Assembly: GCA_951828535.1 (NCBI GenBank)
Contig: OX639990.1
Coordinates: forward strand, 1,227,300 to 1,291,299
DNA length: 64,000 nucleotides
Source of the DNA: an uncultured Candidatus Entotheonella sp.
GTDB lineage: Bacteria > Tectomicrobia > Entotheonellia > Entotheonellales > Entotheonellaceae
Direction of reading: 5' to 3'
The first letter of the stretch is position 1, and each line of letters begins with the position of its first letter. Shown here piece after piece: positions 48,557 to 55,298 of the stretch. Below the pieces are notes generated by a model. The model ran no database searches. It saw only the letters and a program-made list of their open reading frames with translations, and was not told the origin of the DNA. The position numbers and the translations under genes were made by a program.

Positions 48557-48865
48557 TTGAGACAGCAGCACGCTCTTCTTGATGCCGCCATTAAAGTGGT
48601 AGGAAACCGCTACCATACGACCATGCTGATCGCCAAACGCATCCGTCAACTCCATCACGGCGCCCGGCCGCAGGTACCACCTGAGGAGGCAGACAGCTTC
48701 TTTACCATCGCGGTTCGTGAAATTGCCGCTGGCCACCTCTCTTTTGAGTCTGCCCCCCCGCCTGAGACTGCCCCTCCTGTCCCCGCCGCAATTTCCGGCA
48801 ACGGCACCCTTGAGGGTGACAGTAAAGCGGTGGAAACGTCTGAAACGGCAGACGATGGTGCCTGA
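48557..48865 (+). CDS. rpoZ: RNA polymerase omega subunit (probable)
   Basis: The 102-aa product has the omega core: LLDAAIKVVGNRYHTTMLIAKRIRQL (residues about 7-33), then the segment ending TIAVREIAAGHL. Omega helps fold beta'. The C-terminal 35 residues are Pro/Ala/Glu-rich and unstructured. I choose TTG 48557 because GGGAGGAG (48545-48552) lies 4 nt before it; longer in-frame starts back to 48380 run into the divergent ispD and have no support. yggX follows after 20 nt. Confidence 0.75.
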   Translation: MRQQHALLDAAIKVVGNRYHTTMLIAKRIRQLHHGARPQVPPEEADSFFTIAVREIAAGHLSFESAPPPETAPPVPAAISGNGTLEGDSKAVETSETADDGA

Positions 48866-48885
48866 CAGGGAGAAAAGGTTCAACC

Positions 48886-49206
48886 ATGACACAACGATTC
48901 GTCTACTGCGGGAAGCTTCAAAAAGAGGCTCCTGGTATTGATGAGGATGAGCTTCAGGGCAGCATTGCCTTGGAAATGATTGAATCGCTGGGCGGGGCTG
49001 AATTACGTCAACGTATCCATGAAAACATCTCCATGGAGGCTTGGGAATTGTGGAAAGGCTTCCTGACGATGATTCTAAATGAATACCGTCTGAATGTCAT
49101 GGACCCACAAGCCGACGAGTTCATCCGTCAGCAAATGGAAGAGTTCTTTTTCGGCGAAGGCGCTGCCCTGCCGCCAGGGTACGTTCCGCCAATGGGCAAG
49201 GGCTAG
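48886..49206 (+). CDS. yggX: Fe(II)-trafficking / oxidative damage protection protein YggX
   Basis: The 106-aa product matches the YggX family across its core: a Cys near residue 7 (FVYCGKLQKEAPG), NISMEAWELWKGFLTMILNEYRLN, and DPQADEFIRQQMEEFFFG. Family members are thought to protect iron-sulfur clusters or carry iron; the biochemical role is not settled. It has AAAAGG 7 nt before ATG 48886. It ends 1 nt before the proposed start of a radical SAM gene, whose cluster it could serve. Confidence 0.9.
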   Translation: MTQRFVYCGKLQKEAPGIDEDELQGSIALEMIESLGGAELRQRIHENISMEAWELWKGFLTMILNEYRLNVMDPQADEFIRQQMEEFFFGEGAALPPGYVPPMGKG

Positions 49207-49207
49207 C

Positions 49208-50638
49208 TTGAGAGCGGCATCCGTTAGGGTGGCCACAGTGCGTGTCGTACTCCTCGCAACCTATGAATTGGGACGGCAGCCTTTTGGCTTGGCTTCCCCT
49301 GCCGCTTGGCTACGACAGGCAGGAGCGACGGTTCGGTGCCAGGATTTGTCACGCAGTCGCCTGGACCGTGGGGCCATTCTGGCGGCCGACCTTGTGGCCT
49401 TCTACATCCCCATGCACACCGCAACGCGGATTGCCATCCAGGTTGCGAAACACGTCAAGACCCTTAACCCGCAAGCTCACCTCTGCTTCTATGGCCTTTA
49501 CGCCCCCATGAATGACCGATTGTTACGCGAACTGGGGGCCGCCACCCTGCTCGGTGGGGAATTTGAATCTGGGCTGTTACGACTCGTGCAATATCTTCAG
49601 ACAGATTCCACACCCCCTGCCCAATCGCCGGAAGTCGTCACTTCCCTGGATCGCCAACAGTTTCAGGTACCTGATCGGCGCGATTTACCCCCCCTGCCAG
49701 TTTACGCCCAACTCAAAATAGGCGAGCGGTCACACGTCGCCGGCTACACGGAAGCCAGCCGCGGCTGCAAACACTTCTGTCGCCATTGTCCGATCGTGCC
49801 GGTCTATGAGGGCCGCTTTCGCATCGTGCAGAGGGACGTCGTCCTGGAAGATATCCGGCGCCAGGTCGCGGCCGGCGCCGAGCACGTGACCTTTGGCGAC
49901 CCCGATTTTTTCAACGGTATCGGCCACGCCATGCCGTTGGTGCATGACCTGCACCGGGAGTTCCCCAGCCTCACTTACGACGTCACCATCAAGATAGAAC
50001 ACCTGTTGCGGTATACCGAGCATCTGCCCACCCTCCGCCAAACCGGCTGCCTGATGGTGACGAGCGCCGTGGAGTCCGTCCAGGATGGCGTTCTGCGTCT
50101 GCTCGATAAAGGCCACACCCGACAGGATTTTCTCCAGGCTCTGGCCCGGTGCAGGCAAGCCGGAATTTGCCTCAATCCGACCTTTGTCGCCTTCATGCCC
50201 TGGACCTTTTTGCCCGACTATATCGACTTACTGGCCGTAATCGCCACGCAAGGTCTGATCGAACACGTCGCGCCCATCCAACTCGCCATGCGTTTGCTGA
50301 TCCCTGACGGCTCCAAACTACTTGACCTGCCCGAAATGGGTCTGTCGCTGCGGGAATTCGACGCCGACGCCCTGTCGTACCGCTGGGAACATCCCGACGT
50401 ACGGATGGATGGCCTCTGCGCGGAGGCGCTCCAATTGGTCCAAAGCGGTGAGGCGGAAGGCGCCGGCCGCTATGAGATATTTGAACGCCTCTGGCACGCC
50501 GCCCACAAGGCCGCCCAAATTCCCGCTCCGCTGGTGCCCGCCCCCGTTGCCCCGCCAGCCCGTGGGCCCGTTCCTTACCTTGATGAGCCGTGGTATTGTT
50601 GAGCGGAACCCACCGAGGAGCAGGTTGCTCCGTTCTAG
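49208..50638 (+). CDS. Radical SAM selenoprotein with Cys-Sec-Ala-Glu-Pro tail
   Basis: Radical SAM enzyme of unknown substrate. Residues about 15-140 form a Rossmann-like domain similar in outline to cobalamin-binding N-domains but without the usual His motif. The iron-sulfur motif is C187-KHF-C191-RH-C194. The ORF would end at TGA 50600-50602, after Trp-Tyr-Cys. If that TGA is selenocysteine (residue 465), the tail reads Cys-Sec-Ala-Glu-Pro and runs 11 more codons to TAG 50636, total 476 aa. A SECIS-like hairpin follows the TGA. I recall an NCBI family named for a CUAEP/CCAEP tail. The start is uncertain: TTG 49208 (AAGGG 5 nt upstream) or GTG 49229. Confidence 0.88.
50600..50636 (+). promoter_or_regulatory. 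In-frame UGA and bacterial SECIS element of the radical SAM gene
   Basis: After TGA (50600-50602), GGAGC (50617-50621) pairs with GCTCC (50627-50631) around the loop AGGTT. A lower stem of GGAAC (50605-50609) with GTTCT (50632-50636) is stacked on it, leaving a 7-nt bulge on the 5' side. The apical loop starts 20 nt after the UGA. Distance and G-containing loop fit the bacterial SECIS pattern recognised by SelB; the loop resembles AGGUCU of E. coli fdhF. Confidence 0.75.
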
Positions 50639-50690
50639 AACCAAGGACTTCTTGGTGCTCTGGCCATACGCGCAGTCTGGGGAAATAAGG

Positions 50691-51962
50691 ATGGCAACAC
50701 CCGACGTCGGCCGTTCCCGGCTCATGCTCCTGTATACGACGACAGGGTATGAGGCACGAGAATTCATACGGACGGCTCAGCAACTCGGCGTGGAAACGGT
50801 GCTCGGCAGCGACCGCTGTGATGTTCTGGACGATCCCTGGGAAGACGATGCCGTGCCGCTACGGTTTGAGCGCCCACAGGAAGCCGCACGGCGCATCGTC
50901 GAGGTTGCTGGGCAGCAACCCGTCGCCGCCATTCTCCCCGTGGGCGACACCCCTCTTCTCAGCGCCGCGAAAGCGAGCCGGGCGTTGGGTTTGCTGCACA
51001 ATCCACCGGACGCCGTGCTGTCCAGCCACAACAAATACCTCATGCGCCAGCGCCTGCAAGCGGCTTTTGCGCAAGTGCCGGCTTTTATGTGTTTCCCGAT
51101 GCAAACCGACCCCCGTCTCGTGCAACACGAGGTTCCATACCCATGTGTCGTTAAGCCGCTCGCCCTGTCGGCGAGTCGCGGTGTCATGCGGGCCGATACC
51201 CCGGCCGAATTTATTGCCGCCTTCCTTCGATTGCGCGCCTTGCTGGAACGGCACGAAATACGCCAGAAACAAGATGAAGCCAACGAAGGGATCCTCATCG
51301 AAAGTTTCATTCCCGGTGCCGAGGTCGCCCTGGAAGGTCTGTTAACCGCCGGCCGTCTGCAACCGTTGGCCCTGTTTGATAAGCCCGACCCGCTGAACGG
51401 TCCTTTTTTTGAAGAAACCCTCTACATCACGCCTTCCCGTCTCAGTGCGGACCTGCAGGCCGAGATCGTCCGCTGCGCCGAACAGGCAGCCCTTACTCTG
51501 GGTCTCTGCCACGGTCCCTTGCACGCCGAATTTCGGGTCAACAGCCAAGGCCCCTGGCTCCTCGAACTCGCCGCCCGGCCCATCGGCGGCTTGTGAAGCC
51601 GCTCGCTGCGCTTTGGGACCGGGATGTCCCTTGAAGAGCTGCTCATCCGTCACGCGTGCGGCCTCCCTCTGCCCTCTCTGAAACGCGAGCAGGCTGCTGC
51701 CGGCACTATGATGCTACCCATTCCCCGCGCTGGTTTTCTCAAACATGTGACGGGCCTGGACGCGGCACTCAGCCTTTCCGGCATCGAAGATGTTGTGATC
51801 ACCGCCAAGCCGCATGAGAAACTCCAGCCCTTCCCCGAGGGCGCCAGTTACCCCGGGTTCATTTTTGCCCGCGGTGAAACCCCACAGGCGGTCGAACAGA
51901 CCCTGCGCGAGGCCCATCGACGCCTGCATCTGGTCATCACGCCCAGCCTCGACTTGCTTTGA
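50691..51962 (+). CDS. ATP-grasp ligase selenoprotein
   Basis: ATP-grasp enzyme resembling L-amino-acid ligases and related carboxylate-amine ligases. The N-terminal Rossmann domain (LMLLYTTTGYEAREF) leads to the ATP-grasp core, with PYPCVVKPLALSASRGV near residues 143-161, ILIESFIPGAEVALEGL, and LLELAARPIGGL. The ORF would stop at TGA 51594-51596, directly after Gly-Gly-Leu. Read as Sec302 it continues SRSLRFGTGMSLEEL and on through a typical C-terminal domain to TGA 51960-51962 (423 aa). Homologues I recall have Cys at this position (GGLCAR). ATG 50691 has GGGGA about 7 nt upstream. It follows the radical SAM gene by 52 nt. Confidence 0.88.
51594..51639 (+). promoter_or_regulatory. In-frame UGA and bacterial SECIS element of the ATP-grasp gene
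   Basis: After TGA (51594-51596), GGGAC (51615-51619) pairs with GTCCC (51626-51630) around the loop CGGGAT. A lower stem of CTT (51611-51613) with AAG (51634-51636), extended by GC/GC across a mismatch (51608-51609 with 51638-51639), supports it. The apical loop begins 24 nt after the UGA and has G at its second position, consistent with bacterial SECIS elements. Confidence 0.7.
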
Positions 51963-52250: not shown

Positions 52251-53603
52251 GTGACCAACTTGCACACCGCGGGCTGGGCCCGCACCCACAAATGGCAGGC
52301 CGTGAAACGCACGGCCTGCACCCTCGGGCTCTCGCTTGTCCTGTTGGCGGGACTGATGGGCACCGGCGCCATGGCACAGGAGCCTATCAAAGTAGGCGTG
52401 TTGCATTCGCTGAGCGGCACCATGGCCATCAGTGAGGGACCCCTCAAGGAAGTCATCCTCATGGCCATCGAGGAACTCAATGAGGCTGGTGGGGTGTTAG
52501 GGCGCCCTGTCGAGCCGATCGTGGAAGATCCCGCCTCGAACTGGGATCTCTTCGCCGAAAAGGCGAAGAAACTTCTGACGCAGGATGAGGTGGCGACGGT
52601 ATTCGGCTGCTGGACCTCGGTGAGCCGCAAGTCCGTGCTGCCGGTGTTTGAGCAGTACAACGGCCTCCTTTTCTACCCTGTCCAGTATGAGGGCGAGGAG
52701 TGCTCCAAGAACGTCATTTACACCGGTGCGACGATCAACCAGCAAGCCTCTCCCGCGGTGGATTACCTGATGAGCCCGGAAGGCGGCGGCAAAAGGCGCT
52801 TCTACCTTATAGGTACGGACTACGTCTACCCGCGCACCACGAACAAAATCCTGCGGCTCTACCTCACCAAGGCCAAGGGCGTCATGGAGGCCGGCATCGC
52901 TGAGGAATACACGCCGTTTCACCATCAGGACTACCAGACCATCGTCGGCAAGATCAAAAGCTTCTGCGCCGGCGGTGATGGCGCTGTGATCAACACCATC
53001 AACGGCGACAGCAATGTGCCGTTTTTCAAGGAACTGGCCAATCAGGGCATCACGGCCGACACCTGCCCGGTCATTTCGTTCAGCTTTGCCGAGGTGGAAT
53101 TGCAAACCCTGGACGTTAAGCCCCTGGCCGGCCACCTTGCCTCCTGGAACTACTACATGTCGCTGAAGTCCCCGCAGAACTTTAAGTGGGTGAAGGCGTA
53201 CAAGAAATGGTGCGAAAAGCGCGGCATACCGGACAAACAGTGCGTGACCGATGATCCGATGATGCACGCCTACATACACGTCAAACTGTGGGCCAAGGCC
53301 GTCGAGAAAGCCGGCAGTACGGACGTCGAAGCGGTCCTCAAGGCACTGGAAGGTCTGACGCTCAGCAGTCCCGTTGGCAATTACAAAGTCGACGAGAAGA
53401 ACCATCACACCTGGAAGCCGGTCTACATCGGCAAAATCCGCGAAGATGGTCAGTTCGACGTCGTGTGGAAGACCAAGGAGTGGGTGCGGCCCCTGCCGTG
53501 GAGCGAGTTGACCTATCCCGGTCGGGCCTGCGATTGGAGCGGCGACGGCCTGGGAACCTATGATATGGTGAACGGCAACCGCAGCTGGCTGTCTCAGCAA
53601 TAA
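52251..53603 (+). CDS. urtA: Urea ABC transporter, substrate-binding protein UrtA
   Basis: Periplasmic urea-binding protein. The 450-aa product has a long signal peptide (hydrophobic core LGLSLVLLAGLMGTGAMA, cleavage near residue 42) and a type I periplasmic-binding fold with IKVGVLHSLSGTMAISE, GCWTSVSRKSVLPVFE and NQQASPAVDYL. It starts at GTG 52251 with AAGGAG 6 nt upstream. First gene of urtABCDE. No urease genes are in the window. Confidence 0.94.
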   Translation: MTNLHTAGWARTHKWQAVKRTACTLGLSLVLLAGLMGTGAMAQEPIKVGVLHSLSGTMAISEGPLKEVILMAIEELNEAGGVLGRPVEPIVEDPASNWDLFAEKAKKLLTQDEVATVFGCWTSVSRKSVLPVFEQYNGLLFYPVQYEGEECSKNVIYTGATINQQASPAVDYLMSPEGGGKRRFYLIGTDYVYPRTTNKILRLYLTKAKGVMEAGIAEEYTPFHHQDYQTIVGKIKSFCAGGDGAVINTINGDSNVPFFKELANQGITADTCPVISFSFAEVELQTLDVKPLAGHLASWNYYMSLKSPQNFKWVKAYKKWCEKRGIPDKQCVTDDPMMHAYIHVKLWAKAVEKAGSTDVEAVLKALEGLTLSSPVGNYKVDEKNHHTWKPVYIGKIREDGQFDVVWKTKEWVRPLPWSELTYPGRACDWSGDGLGTYDMVNGNRSWLSQQ

Positions 53604-53669
53604 CGCCTTGCGAGCGGGGGAATGCCTGGGCGTTCCCCCGCAACCGTTTCAAGCACGCGGAGACCTGAA

Positions 53670-55298
53670 TTGTTACGCATCCTGACCTTCCTGCTGGTCG
53701 TGTGCTGTGCCGGCGGCGCGTTGCCCAACGCGTCGGTCGCGGCTGACACGCCCGCCGACTATGCCCAGGACCTCGCCACGCTCGCTACCCAGCGGGCCAC
53801 CCTCGAGCAAATCCGTGACCTCGCCGACCCGGCCTTCCGGGGCCTGCTCCAGGCCTTGAAGGAAGGCGCCCTGTATAGTTGGCCGGAAGGCCTCCTTATT
53901 TTCACCGATGACGGGGTTTTTGTAGACCTCGCCGGCACTCCGCTGCTCGACGCCGCCGGTGAGGCCATTTTCCCCGAGGAGGGTCTTGAGCAGGTCCCCT
54001 TAGAGGAAGAAAACATCCCGCTAGTGCAACGCGCTCTTGACGTTATCGCACTTTTTGCCTCGGATCCGGGTGCGCGGCGCTCGACCGCTCTGCGCCTGGG
54101 GAACATGCGCGACGTATCTCTCATTCCCATCTTGACAAAGGCGCGCGACGCGGAACCGGATGCCGTGGTGCGCAATGTCCTTATCGAGGCCGTCAACAAA
54201 TTGCAATTGTTCGCGCCGGAAGCGCAGGCACGGCGCGCGGCCGTCAACTACTTCGGTGACACGCGCTCGGAAGCCGCGCTGAGCCGTTTACGCGACATGC
54301 GCCAGCAGGAACCCGACCCCCAAGTACGGGCCGCGGTCGTCGGAGCTATCGAAACCATTGAGAATTTTCTGCTTGTTCGCAACACCGTCGGCTACATCTT
54401 CAACGGCGTGAGTCTCGCCTCCGTCCTGATGATCATGAGCCTGGGACTCGCGATTACCTTCGGACTGATGGGCATCATCAACATGGCGCACGGCGAAATG
54501 CTGATGATCGGCTCGTACACCGCCTACGTGCTGCAAGAATTCTTCACCTCACACCTGCCGGGTTATCTTGACTATTACTTCATCTTGGCCTTGCCCTTAT
54601 CCATCCTAACGGCGGGCTGTGTCGGCCTGTTGATGGAACGCGGCATCCTGCGTTTCCTGTATGGCCGCCCGCTGGAAAGCCTGCTCATCACGTGGGGTAT
54701 CGGCATGGTGCTGCAACAGGGCGCGCGTCTTTATTTCGGTGATCAAACGAGCGTCAGTCCGCCCACTTGGTTTCGTGGCGGATGGGAGGTCATGCCAGGG
54801 CTCATTTTCCCCTATAGCCGGCTCTTCATCATTGCCCTGTCGGCGTTCGCCCTTGCCATGGTGTATCTGCTGCTGTATCGCTCCAACGTCGGCCTGCGTG
54901 TCCGTTCGGTGATGCAGAATCGCGACATGGCCGCCTGCATCGGCATTTCCACACGCAAAGTTGACGCCCTCACCTTCGCGCTCGGTACCGCTTTGGCGGG
55001 GCTGGCGGGTTGCGCTTTGAGCCTCATCGGAACCGTGGACCCGGAGGTAGGCAAGACATATATTGTCGATTCATTCATGGTCGTGGTGCTGGGCGGGGTC
55101 GGTAAACTGTTCGGCACGGTCCTGGCTTCCGGCATCGTCGGCATGTCGAACAAGCTTCTGGAGCCGCTGATCGCCGGCACCGCCGCTGCCGTTTACGCCA
55201 AGGTCAGCATTCTCGTGCTGGTCATCATTTTCCTGCAGATCAGACCCACGGGTCTCTTCCCGGCCAAGGAACGCACGGCCGCAGGCGCGCTGCGATAA
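53670..55298 (+). CDS. urtB: Urea ABC transporter, permease UrtB
   Basis: Membrane subunit of the LIV-H type. The 542-aa product has a signal peptide, an extracytoplasmic N-terminal extension of about 220 residues with helical HEAT-like repeats (typical of UrtB), and a C-terminal membrane domain from about residue 230 with GLMGIINMAHGEMLMIG. I choose TTG 53670 (GGAG 7 nt upstream), placing the signal peptide at the N-terminus; ATG 53622 would add 16 polar residues. Confidence 0.92.
   Translation: MLRILTFLLVVCCAGGALPNASVAADTPADYAQDLATLATQRATLEQIRDLADPAFRGLLQALKEGALYSWPEGLLIFTDDGVFVDLAGTPLLDAAGEAIFPEEGLEQVPLEEENIPLVQRALDVIALFASDPGARRSTALRLGNMRDVSLIPILTKARDAEPDAVVRNVLIEAVNKLQLFAPEAQARRAAVNYFGDTRSEAALSRLRDMRQQEPDPQVRAAVVGAIETIENFLLVRNTVGYIFNGVSLASVLMIMSLGLAITFGLMGIINMAHGEMLMIGSYTAYVLQEFFTSHLPGYLDYYFILALPLSILTAGCVGLLMERGILRFLYGRPLESLLITWGIGMVLQQGARLYFGDQTSVSPPTWFRGGWEVMPGLIFPYSRLFIIALSAFALAMVYLLLYRSNVGLRVRSVMQNRDMAACIGISTRKVDALTFALGTALAGLAGCALSLIGTVDPEVGKTYIVDSFMVVVLGGVGKLFGTVLASGIVGMSNKLLEPLIAGTAAAVYAKVSILVLVIIFLQIRPTGLFPAKERTAAGALR

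Follow-up and report, generated by a model that had tools for sequence, protein, structure and literature searches.

We analyzed a window of 64,000 nucleotides (nt) from an uncultured Candidatus Entotheonella sp. (contig OX639990.1, positions 1,227,300 to 1,291,299), which is part of one 3.6-Mb contig. The window holds four genes in tandem, namely rpoZ, yggX, a gene for a radical S-adenosylmethionine (SAM) enzyme (hereafter rSAM) and one for an ATP-grasp ligase of the L-amino-acid-ligase type (hereafter LAL); their coordinates were confirmed on the window and are collected in Table 1. A single in-frame TGA is present in each of the rSAM and LAL genes, and both, like yggX, are otherwise intact. 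An initial annotation had described these genes as a compact locus of one pathway. Its spacings of 20 nt between rpoZ and yggX and of 52 nt between rSAM and LAL hold, whereas its 1-nt gap between yggX and rSAM, which assumes the TTG start, probably does not. Homologues align from the GTG start of rSAM, which makes it likelier than the TTG, and the gap counted from the GTG is probably 31 nt. Among named records the closest is the chromosome of an uncultured Candidatus Entotheonella (L032), in which the same four genes are found at 88–94% protein identity. Our wider sample consisted of the best 80 of 290 relatives, plus genome surveys of two phyla. Over these 80 loci rpoZ adjoins the others in its own genus only; its inclusion in the coupled locus was incidental and we rejected it as a member of the system.

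Table 1. Features of the rSAM-LAL locus, in coordinates of the window.
Feature	Position	Strand	Evidence or detail
rpoZ	48557-48865		PF01192 46.9 bits
yggX, Fe(2+)-trafficking / oxidative damage protection protein	48886..49206	+	NF003817 95.8 bits (cut-off 74), PF04362 92.9 bits; both above cut-off
rSAM, predicted selenoprotein of the CUAEP-tail family	49238..50638	+	NF040546; probable start GTG 49238, TTG 49208 possible; stop TAG 50636-50638
rSAM TGA (predicted selenocysteine), WYC-U-AEP C-terminal tail	50600..50602	+	67 TGA / 14 Cys, 81 genes
SECIS-like hairpin GGAGCA-GGT-TGCTCC, 3' of rSAM TGA	50617..50631	+	inverted repeat
LAL, ATP-grasp ligase of L-amino-acid-ligase type, predicted selenoprotein here	50691..51962	+	PF13535 105 bits, PF18603 60.5 bits
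LAL TGA (predicted Sec302), RPIGGL-U-SR	51594..51596	+	Cys/Sec in 88/88 readable LALs
SECIS-like hairpin GGGAC-CGGGAT-GTCCC, 3' of LAL TGA	51614..51630 (approximate)	+	kept in four Sec-LAL genes

The two TGA codons stand in the contexts DEPWYC-U-AEPTEEQVAPF (rSAM) and ARPIGGL-U-SRSLRF (LAL). In the 80 loci and the window together, no residue other than Cys alternates with TGA after the WYC of rSAM, and site 302 of LAL is Cys or selenocysteine (Sec) in every readable sequence. The sequence downstream of either TGA is conserved in homologues. The genome encodes both a tRNA-Sec (73.9 bits, gathering score 47) and SelB (363 bits, cut-off 242). Hairpins resembling a selenocysteine insertion sequence (SECIS) follow both codons. 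A 5-bp hairpin, in one of two possible registers about 14 nt past the rSAM TGA, was present in 57 of the 67 TGA genes, compared to 4 of the 14 Cys genes (Fisher 6e-5, an optimistic value as the rows share ancestry) and about 1 of 67 shuffled sequences. The hairpin past the TGA of LAL is kept in 4/4 Sec-LAL genes. Folding of the SECIS candidates as single sequences gave a weak signal, which for the LAL hairpin was not significant (z 0.23), unlike the counting of pairs over the 67 TGA genes, from which the rSAM hairpin emerged clearly. With UGA aligned to Cys, a SECIS-like hairpin and the Sec machinery at hand, both enzymes have the attributes of bacterial selenoproteins, and we predict that both in-frame TGA codons are read as Sec. 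The description of two neighboring selenoproteins in the initial annotation is thus supported. Its suggestion that the Sec and Cys states of the two enzymes might vary together is not, and we rejected it: Sec in rSAM is widespread in the sample, Sec in LAL is confined to the window and three further loci (L032, L033 and L034), all four from Tectomicrobia, the remaining LALs having Cys, and the commonest pairing is a Sec-containing rSAM with a Cys-containing LAL. We found no mention of LAL as a selenoprotein in the reviews consulted, and a 2026 selenoproteome review lists neither enzyme, though two papers by Haft that it cites may describe them. The public annotation of a CUAEP rSAM on the Thermomicrobium roseum plasmid NC_011961.1 (L112:5935-7371) ends at an in-frame TGA, past which the frame runs on as AEP; the annotation probably represents a selenoprotein cut short.

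The rSAM of the window is a member of NF040546, which NCBI names the CUAEP/CCAEP-tail radical SAM (seleno)protein family. It matches the profile over positions 1-467 of 468 with 633 bits (cut-off 500), and the C-U/C-AEP terminus of the family is present as WYC-TGA-AEP. The family name carries no function, no ligase partner and no iron–sulfur (Fe-S) neighbors. Our literature search returned no mention of CUAEP, with a description in papers of Haft and colleagues being possible. The CxxxCxxC motif (residues 177-184) is invariant in 52 homologues. The structural model has a predicted local distance difference test score (pLDDT) of 91.7, and AprD4 is its top match among solved structures. The next family match is ArsL (NF040542), at 272.7 bits against a cut-off of 450, and nothing else exceeded 48. 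ArsL and rSAM have the same body length, align over their full length at 30–35% identity, and share 60 columns that are invariant in an alignment of both, the cluster cysteines included. A vicinal Cys pair is found at the C-terminus of both. The two differ in that the tail of rSAM (WYCUAEPTEEQVAPF) lacks the RCCLKC of ArsL, follows a Pro-rich linker some 50 residues long and has Sec in most members.

The domains of LAL, ATP-grasp_4 (PF13535, 104.9 bits) and LAL_C2 (PF18603), both score above their gathering thresholds. Its model (pLDDT 89.9) best matches the L-amino acid ligase BL00235 (3vot, E 4e-34), followed by BacD (8e-28). LAL has the domain order and LAL_C2 of BL00235 and BacD/YwfE, and in the model also their fold, at identities of approximately 26% to the former and 20% to the latter; its Fe-S neighbors set it apart from them. 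The protein is probably an amino-acid ligase. BL00235, the closest solved relative, makes Met-Gly and Met-Met (PMC6920838). By the printed alignment, R296 of LAL aligns with R328 of BacD and residue 302 lies two positions after Trp332 of BacD, a pocket residue shaping the N-terminal substrate site (PMC6920838). Residue 302, located in the loop after R-x-x-G-G and just past this pocket residue, is probably in contact with the substrate or with a bound metal. The Cys/Sec302 is absent from BacD, and 3vot has Val at this position. The pairing of a radical SAM step with an ATP-dependent ligation, as foreseen from the window, agrees with these family assignments. The accompanying statement that no system of this composition had been described needs qualification, as the rSAM family already bears an NCBI name; we found no named family for LAL.

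The kinship with ArsL raises the question of an organoarsenic product. By this account, the Cys-Sec tail of rSAM would bind As(III) and the enzyme would, as ArsL does, produce an arsenic-containing amino acid, from which LAL would build a peptide, in parallel to the arsinothricin clusters. ArsL being the nearest family of rSAM and the vicinal Cys pair ending both tails speak in its favor, as does an ATP-grasp ligase in the five ArsL plasmid loci that we inspected. The surroundings of rSAM are unlike those of ArsL: 1.5 Mb around 100 loci contained no ArsR, ArsB, ArsC or arsinothricin-type transporter, and yielded just weak methyltransferase matches and one N-acetyltransferase match. ArsM was not significantly enriched in genomes with rSAM (24/31 vs 103/166, p 0.11; Acidobacteriota), the ArsL-linked ligases are 22–24% identical to LAL and lack Cys302, and arsenic leaves the Fe-S neighbors described below unexplained. 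An organoarsenic product is improbable on this evidence. The plasmid loci themselves (L113, L114, L164, L165 and L166, of Priestia, Alicyclobacillus and Pantoea) have the LAL-like ligase at most 4 kb from an arsL with RCCLKC, and most add ArsR, ArsM, a CobW-like GTPase, an aquaporin or ArsN1. Arsinothricin may thus be made as a peptide, and the ligase at all of these loci suggests that an ArsL-type radical SAM enzyme and a ligase may form a module that recurs.

The survey of genomes recommended by the initial annotation showed that rSAM and LAL are nearly always found together, across about ten bacterial phyla. LAL was inside the stretch taken around the locus for 53 of the 80 rSAM loci, and 25 of the 27 genomes without LAL near rSAM carry it elsewhere (459-673 bits). 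Within Acidobacteriota (197 genomes, drawn evenly; LAL of at least 420 bits), LAL was present in 31/31 genomes with rSAM and in 1/166 others. The corresponding numbers for Chloroflexota (201 genomes; LAL of at least 400 bits) were 55/55 and 13/146, with four further genomes without rSAM matching LAL at 340-355 bits. The Fisher p-values, without phylogenetic correction, are 2e-35 and 3e-37, respectively; incompleteness of metagenome-assembled genomes may produce false absences. For 27 rSAM-LAL pairs, a mirror-tree comparison gave a distance correlation of r 0.655, reached in 0/5000 permutations, to which shared species history contributes. This distribution argues, with near certainty in our estimation, that rSAM and LAL work in one pathway, as had been proposed from the window. 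A loose search of the Chloroflexota genomes with LAL only found no rSAM of the NF040546 family above 52 bits. The existence of such genomes suggests either that the pathway can do without rSAM or that rSAM acts downstream.

Clustering of the neighbors of all loci gave only three families that span more than five phyla, namely rSAM, LAL and an NfuA-like carrier, and a third universal gene was consequently rejected. The pattern that emerged is one of alternative Fe-S proteins. We counted partners at the 72 LAL loci whose flanks extend for 2.5 kb or more to either side; these loci are not independent of one another. YggX lies within 2.5 kb in 40 of them and the NfuA-like protein in 18, together 58, with none having both and 14 neither, against a chance expectation for such a partner of approximately 0.3% per locus. 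The pattern recurs over several phyla and gene orientations. In Tectomicrobia yggX lies upstream of rSAM on the same strand; its orientation in Acidobacteria and Chloroflexi is mostly convergent with LAL, even where rSAM sits elsewhere. The NfuA-like carrier takes the place of YggX in NC10, Latescibacterota, Gemmatimonadetes, Calditrichota, SAR324 and others, these phylum labels being our own assignment. The carrier has the layout of an A-type and a NifU-like (Nfu) domain; its TIGR03341 scores of 89-120 bits fall below the cut-off of 269, hence the designation NfuA-like. The low-scoring neighbors (L035:9320-9913, L173:5341-5910 and others) form a divergent NfuA subfamily tied to LAL.

The Fe-S neighbors could simply serve rSAM, with the NfuA-like protein or YggX repairing or reloading its [4Fe-4S] cluster and the metabolite having no relation to iron. 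NfuA does serve other Fe-S enzymes, radical SAM enzymes included (PMC8593673), and in 10-11 loci, drawn from several phyla, the NfuA-like gene is immediately upstream of rSAM. The partner nevertheless remains with LAL when rSAM is elsewhere, and in genomes without such an rSAM; the nine inspected LAL-only loci of Chloroflexota have the NfuA-like gene in eight cases and YggX in one. Judged by gene neighborhood, the Fe-S partner follows LAL and not rSAM, which makes a link of Fe-S to the product of the pathway more likely than the feeding of the rSAM cluster, and we consider supply of rSAM alone unlikely. Of the initial proposal, the Fe-S partner stands, with its link moved from rSAM to LAL. LAL might also modify its neighbor by adding an amino acid to it, in the way that RimK modifies a ribosomal protein, since a small protein is encoded beside LAL in most loci. 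YggX and NfuA are unrelated in sequence, have different C-termini, each typical of its general family, and the closest solved structures to LAL are ligases of free amino acids, all of which render protein modification very improbable.

We favor a two-enzyme pathway of small-molecule ligation that is linked to Fe-S, for which we would give a probability of roughly 0.6; a role in Fe-S or iron maintenance is, taken for itself, rather probable. LAL would use ATP to couple one amino acid to another or to a small acceptor. ArsL-type chemistry is the transfer of a 3-amino-3-carboxypropyl group (PMC8552651), and the kinship with ArsL suggests that rSAM, by the same type of SAM cleavage, could attach this or another SAM-derived group to a soft atom that the Cys-Sec pair at its C-terminus presents, a transfer for which we see slightly less than even odds. 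Either rSAM would make an amino acid for LAL or it would elaborate the product of LAL; elaboration after ligation is slightly favored, since LAL occurs also alone and rSAM hardly ever does. The product, together with YggX or NfuA, would protect, ligate or deliver Fe-S clusters. Low-molecular-weight thiols overlap functionally with Nfu, and extra nfu suppresses the loss of bacillithiol in Staphylococcus aureus (PMC8593673). According to an entry in the reference list of the same paper, yggX and gshA mutants were analyzed together for the labile iron pool. In light of these precedents, a small peptide ligand would be the simplest common thread. The specific proposal that LAL and an elaborating rSAM make a peptide cofactor of low molecular weight that may carry a thiol, selenol or metalloid ligand and works with YggX or NfuA in Fe-S protection or delivery in many mostly uncultured phyla, is tentative, and we rate it on the doubtful side. 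Its likeness to glutathione and bacillithiol in Fe-S maintenance is one of role only, with no shared genes.

Several observations weigh against a pathway linked to Fe-S. YggX is not enriched genome-wide with rSAM (16/31 vs 68/166, p 0.32; Acidobacteriota), for which reason we rejected it as an obligatory genome-level partner; by its distribution it is an interchangeable neighbor and not a fixed component. The 14 LAL loci with neither protein nearby point in the same direction. YggX and NfuA may adjoin for other reasons, such as supply of the rSAM cluster, against which the LAL-only loci argue. The p-values for co-occurrence and for the loci are optimistic, as genomes and loci are phylogenetically related. 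Lastly, there was no association of rSAM with absent bacillithiol synthesis: BshC is found equally often in genomes with and without rSAM (p 1.0), and replacement of bacillithiol by the pathway was accordingly rejected.

Other neighbors are of more restricted distribution. One cluster of a 267-residue protein was seen in five loci of five phyla, and a MoaA-like radical SAM gene is near rSAM in four loci (L074:7998-8993, L049, L066 and L103). Aconitase, glucose-6-phosphate dehydrogenase and glucokinase near the loci represent synteny of Acidobacteria; the gene for aconitase, itself an Fe-S enzyme, is divergent and upstream of rSAM in L095:7252-9915 and about 20 loci of Acidobacteria, probably as lineage synteny. 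At positions 52251-55298 of the window a gene for UrtA, the substrate-binding protein of a urea ATP-binding cassette transporter (552 bits), is followed by a long open frame resembling its permease; these are apparently unrelated to the locus.

The retention of rSAM and LAL across distant phyla, beside one or the other of two alternative Fe-S proteins, predicts a shared metabolite, none having been found isolated so far. The CUAEP radical SAM family, named by NCBI and unexplained, gains a partner and a function that can be tested; LAL is predicted to add a ligase to the selenoproteins, with Sec in a loop that is likely part of the substrate pocket. Should the product prove to be an Fe-S helper akin to glutathione or bacillithiol, it would represent new physiology for Acidobacteriota, Chloroflexota, Methylomirabilota and Tectomicrobia.

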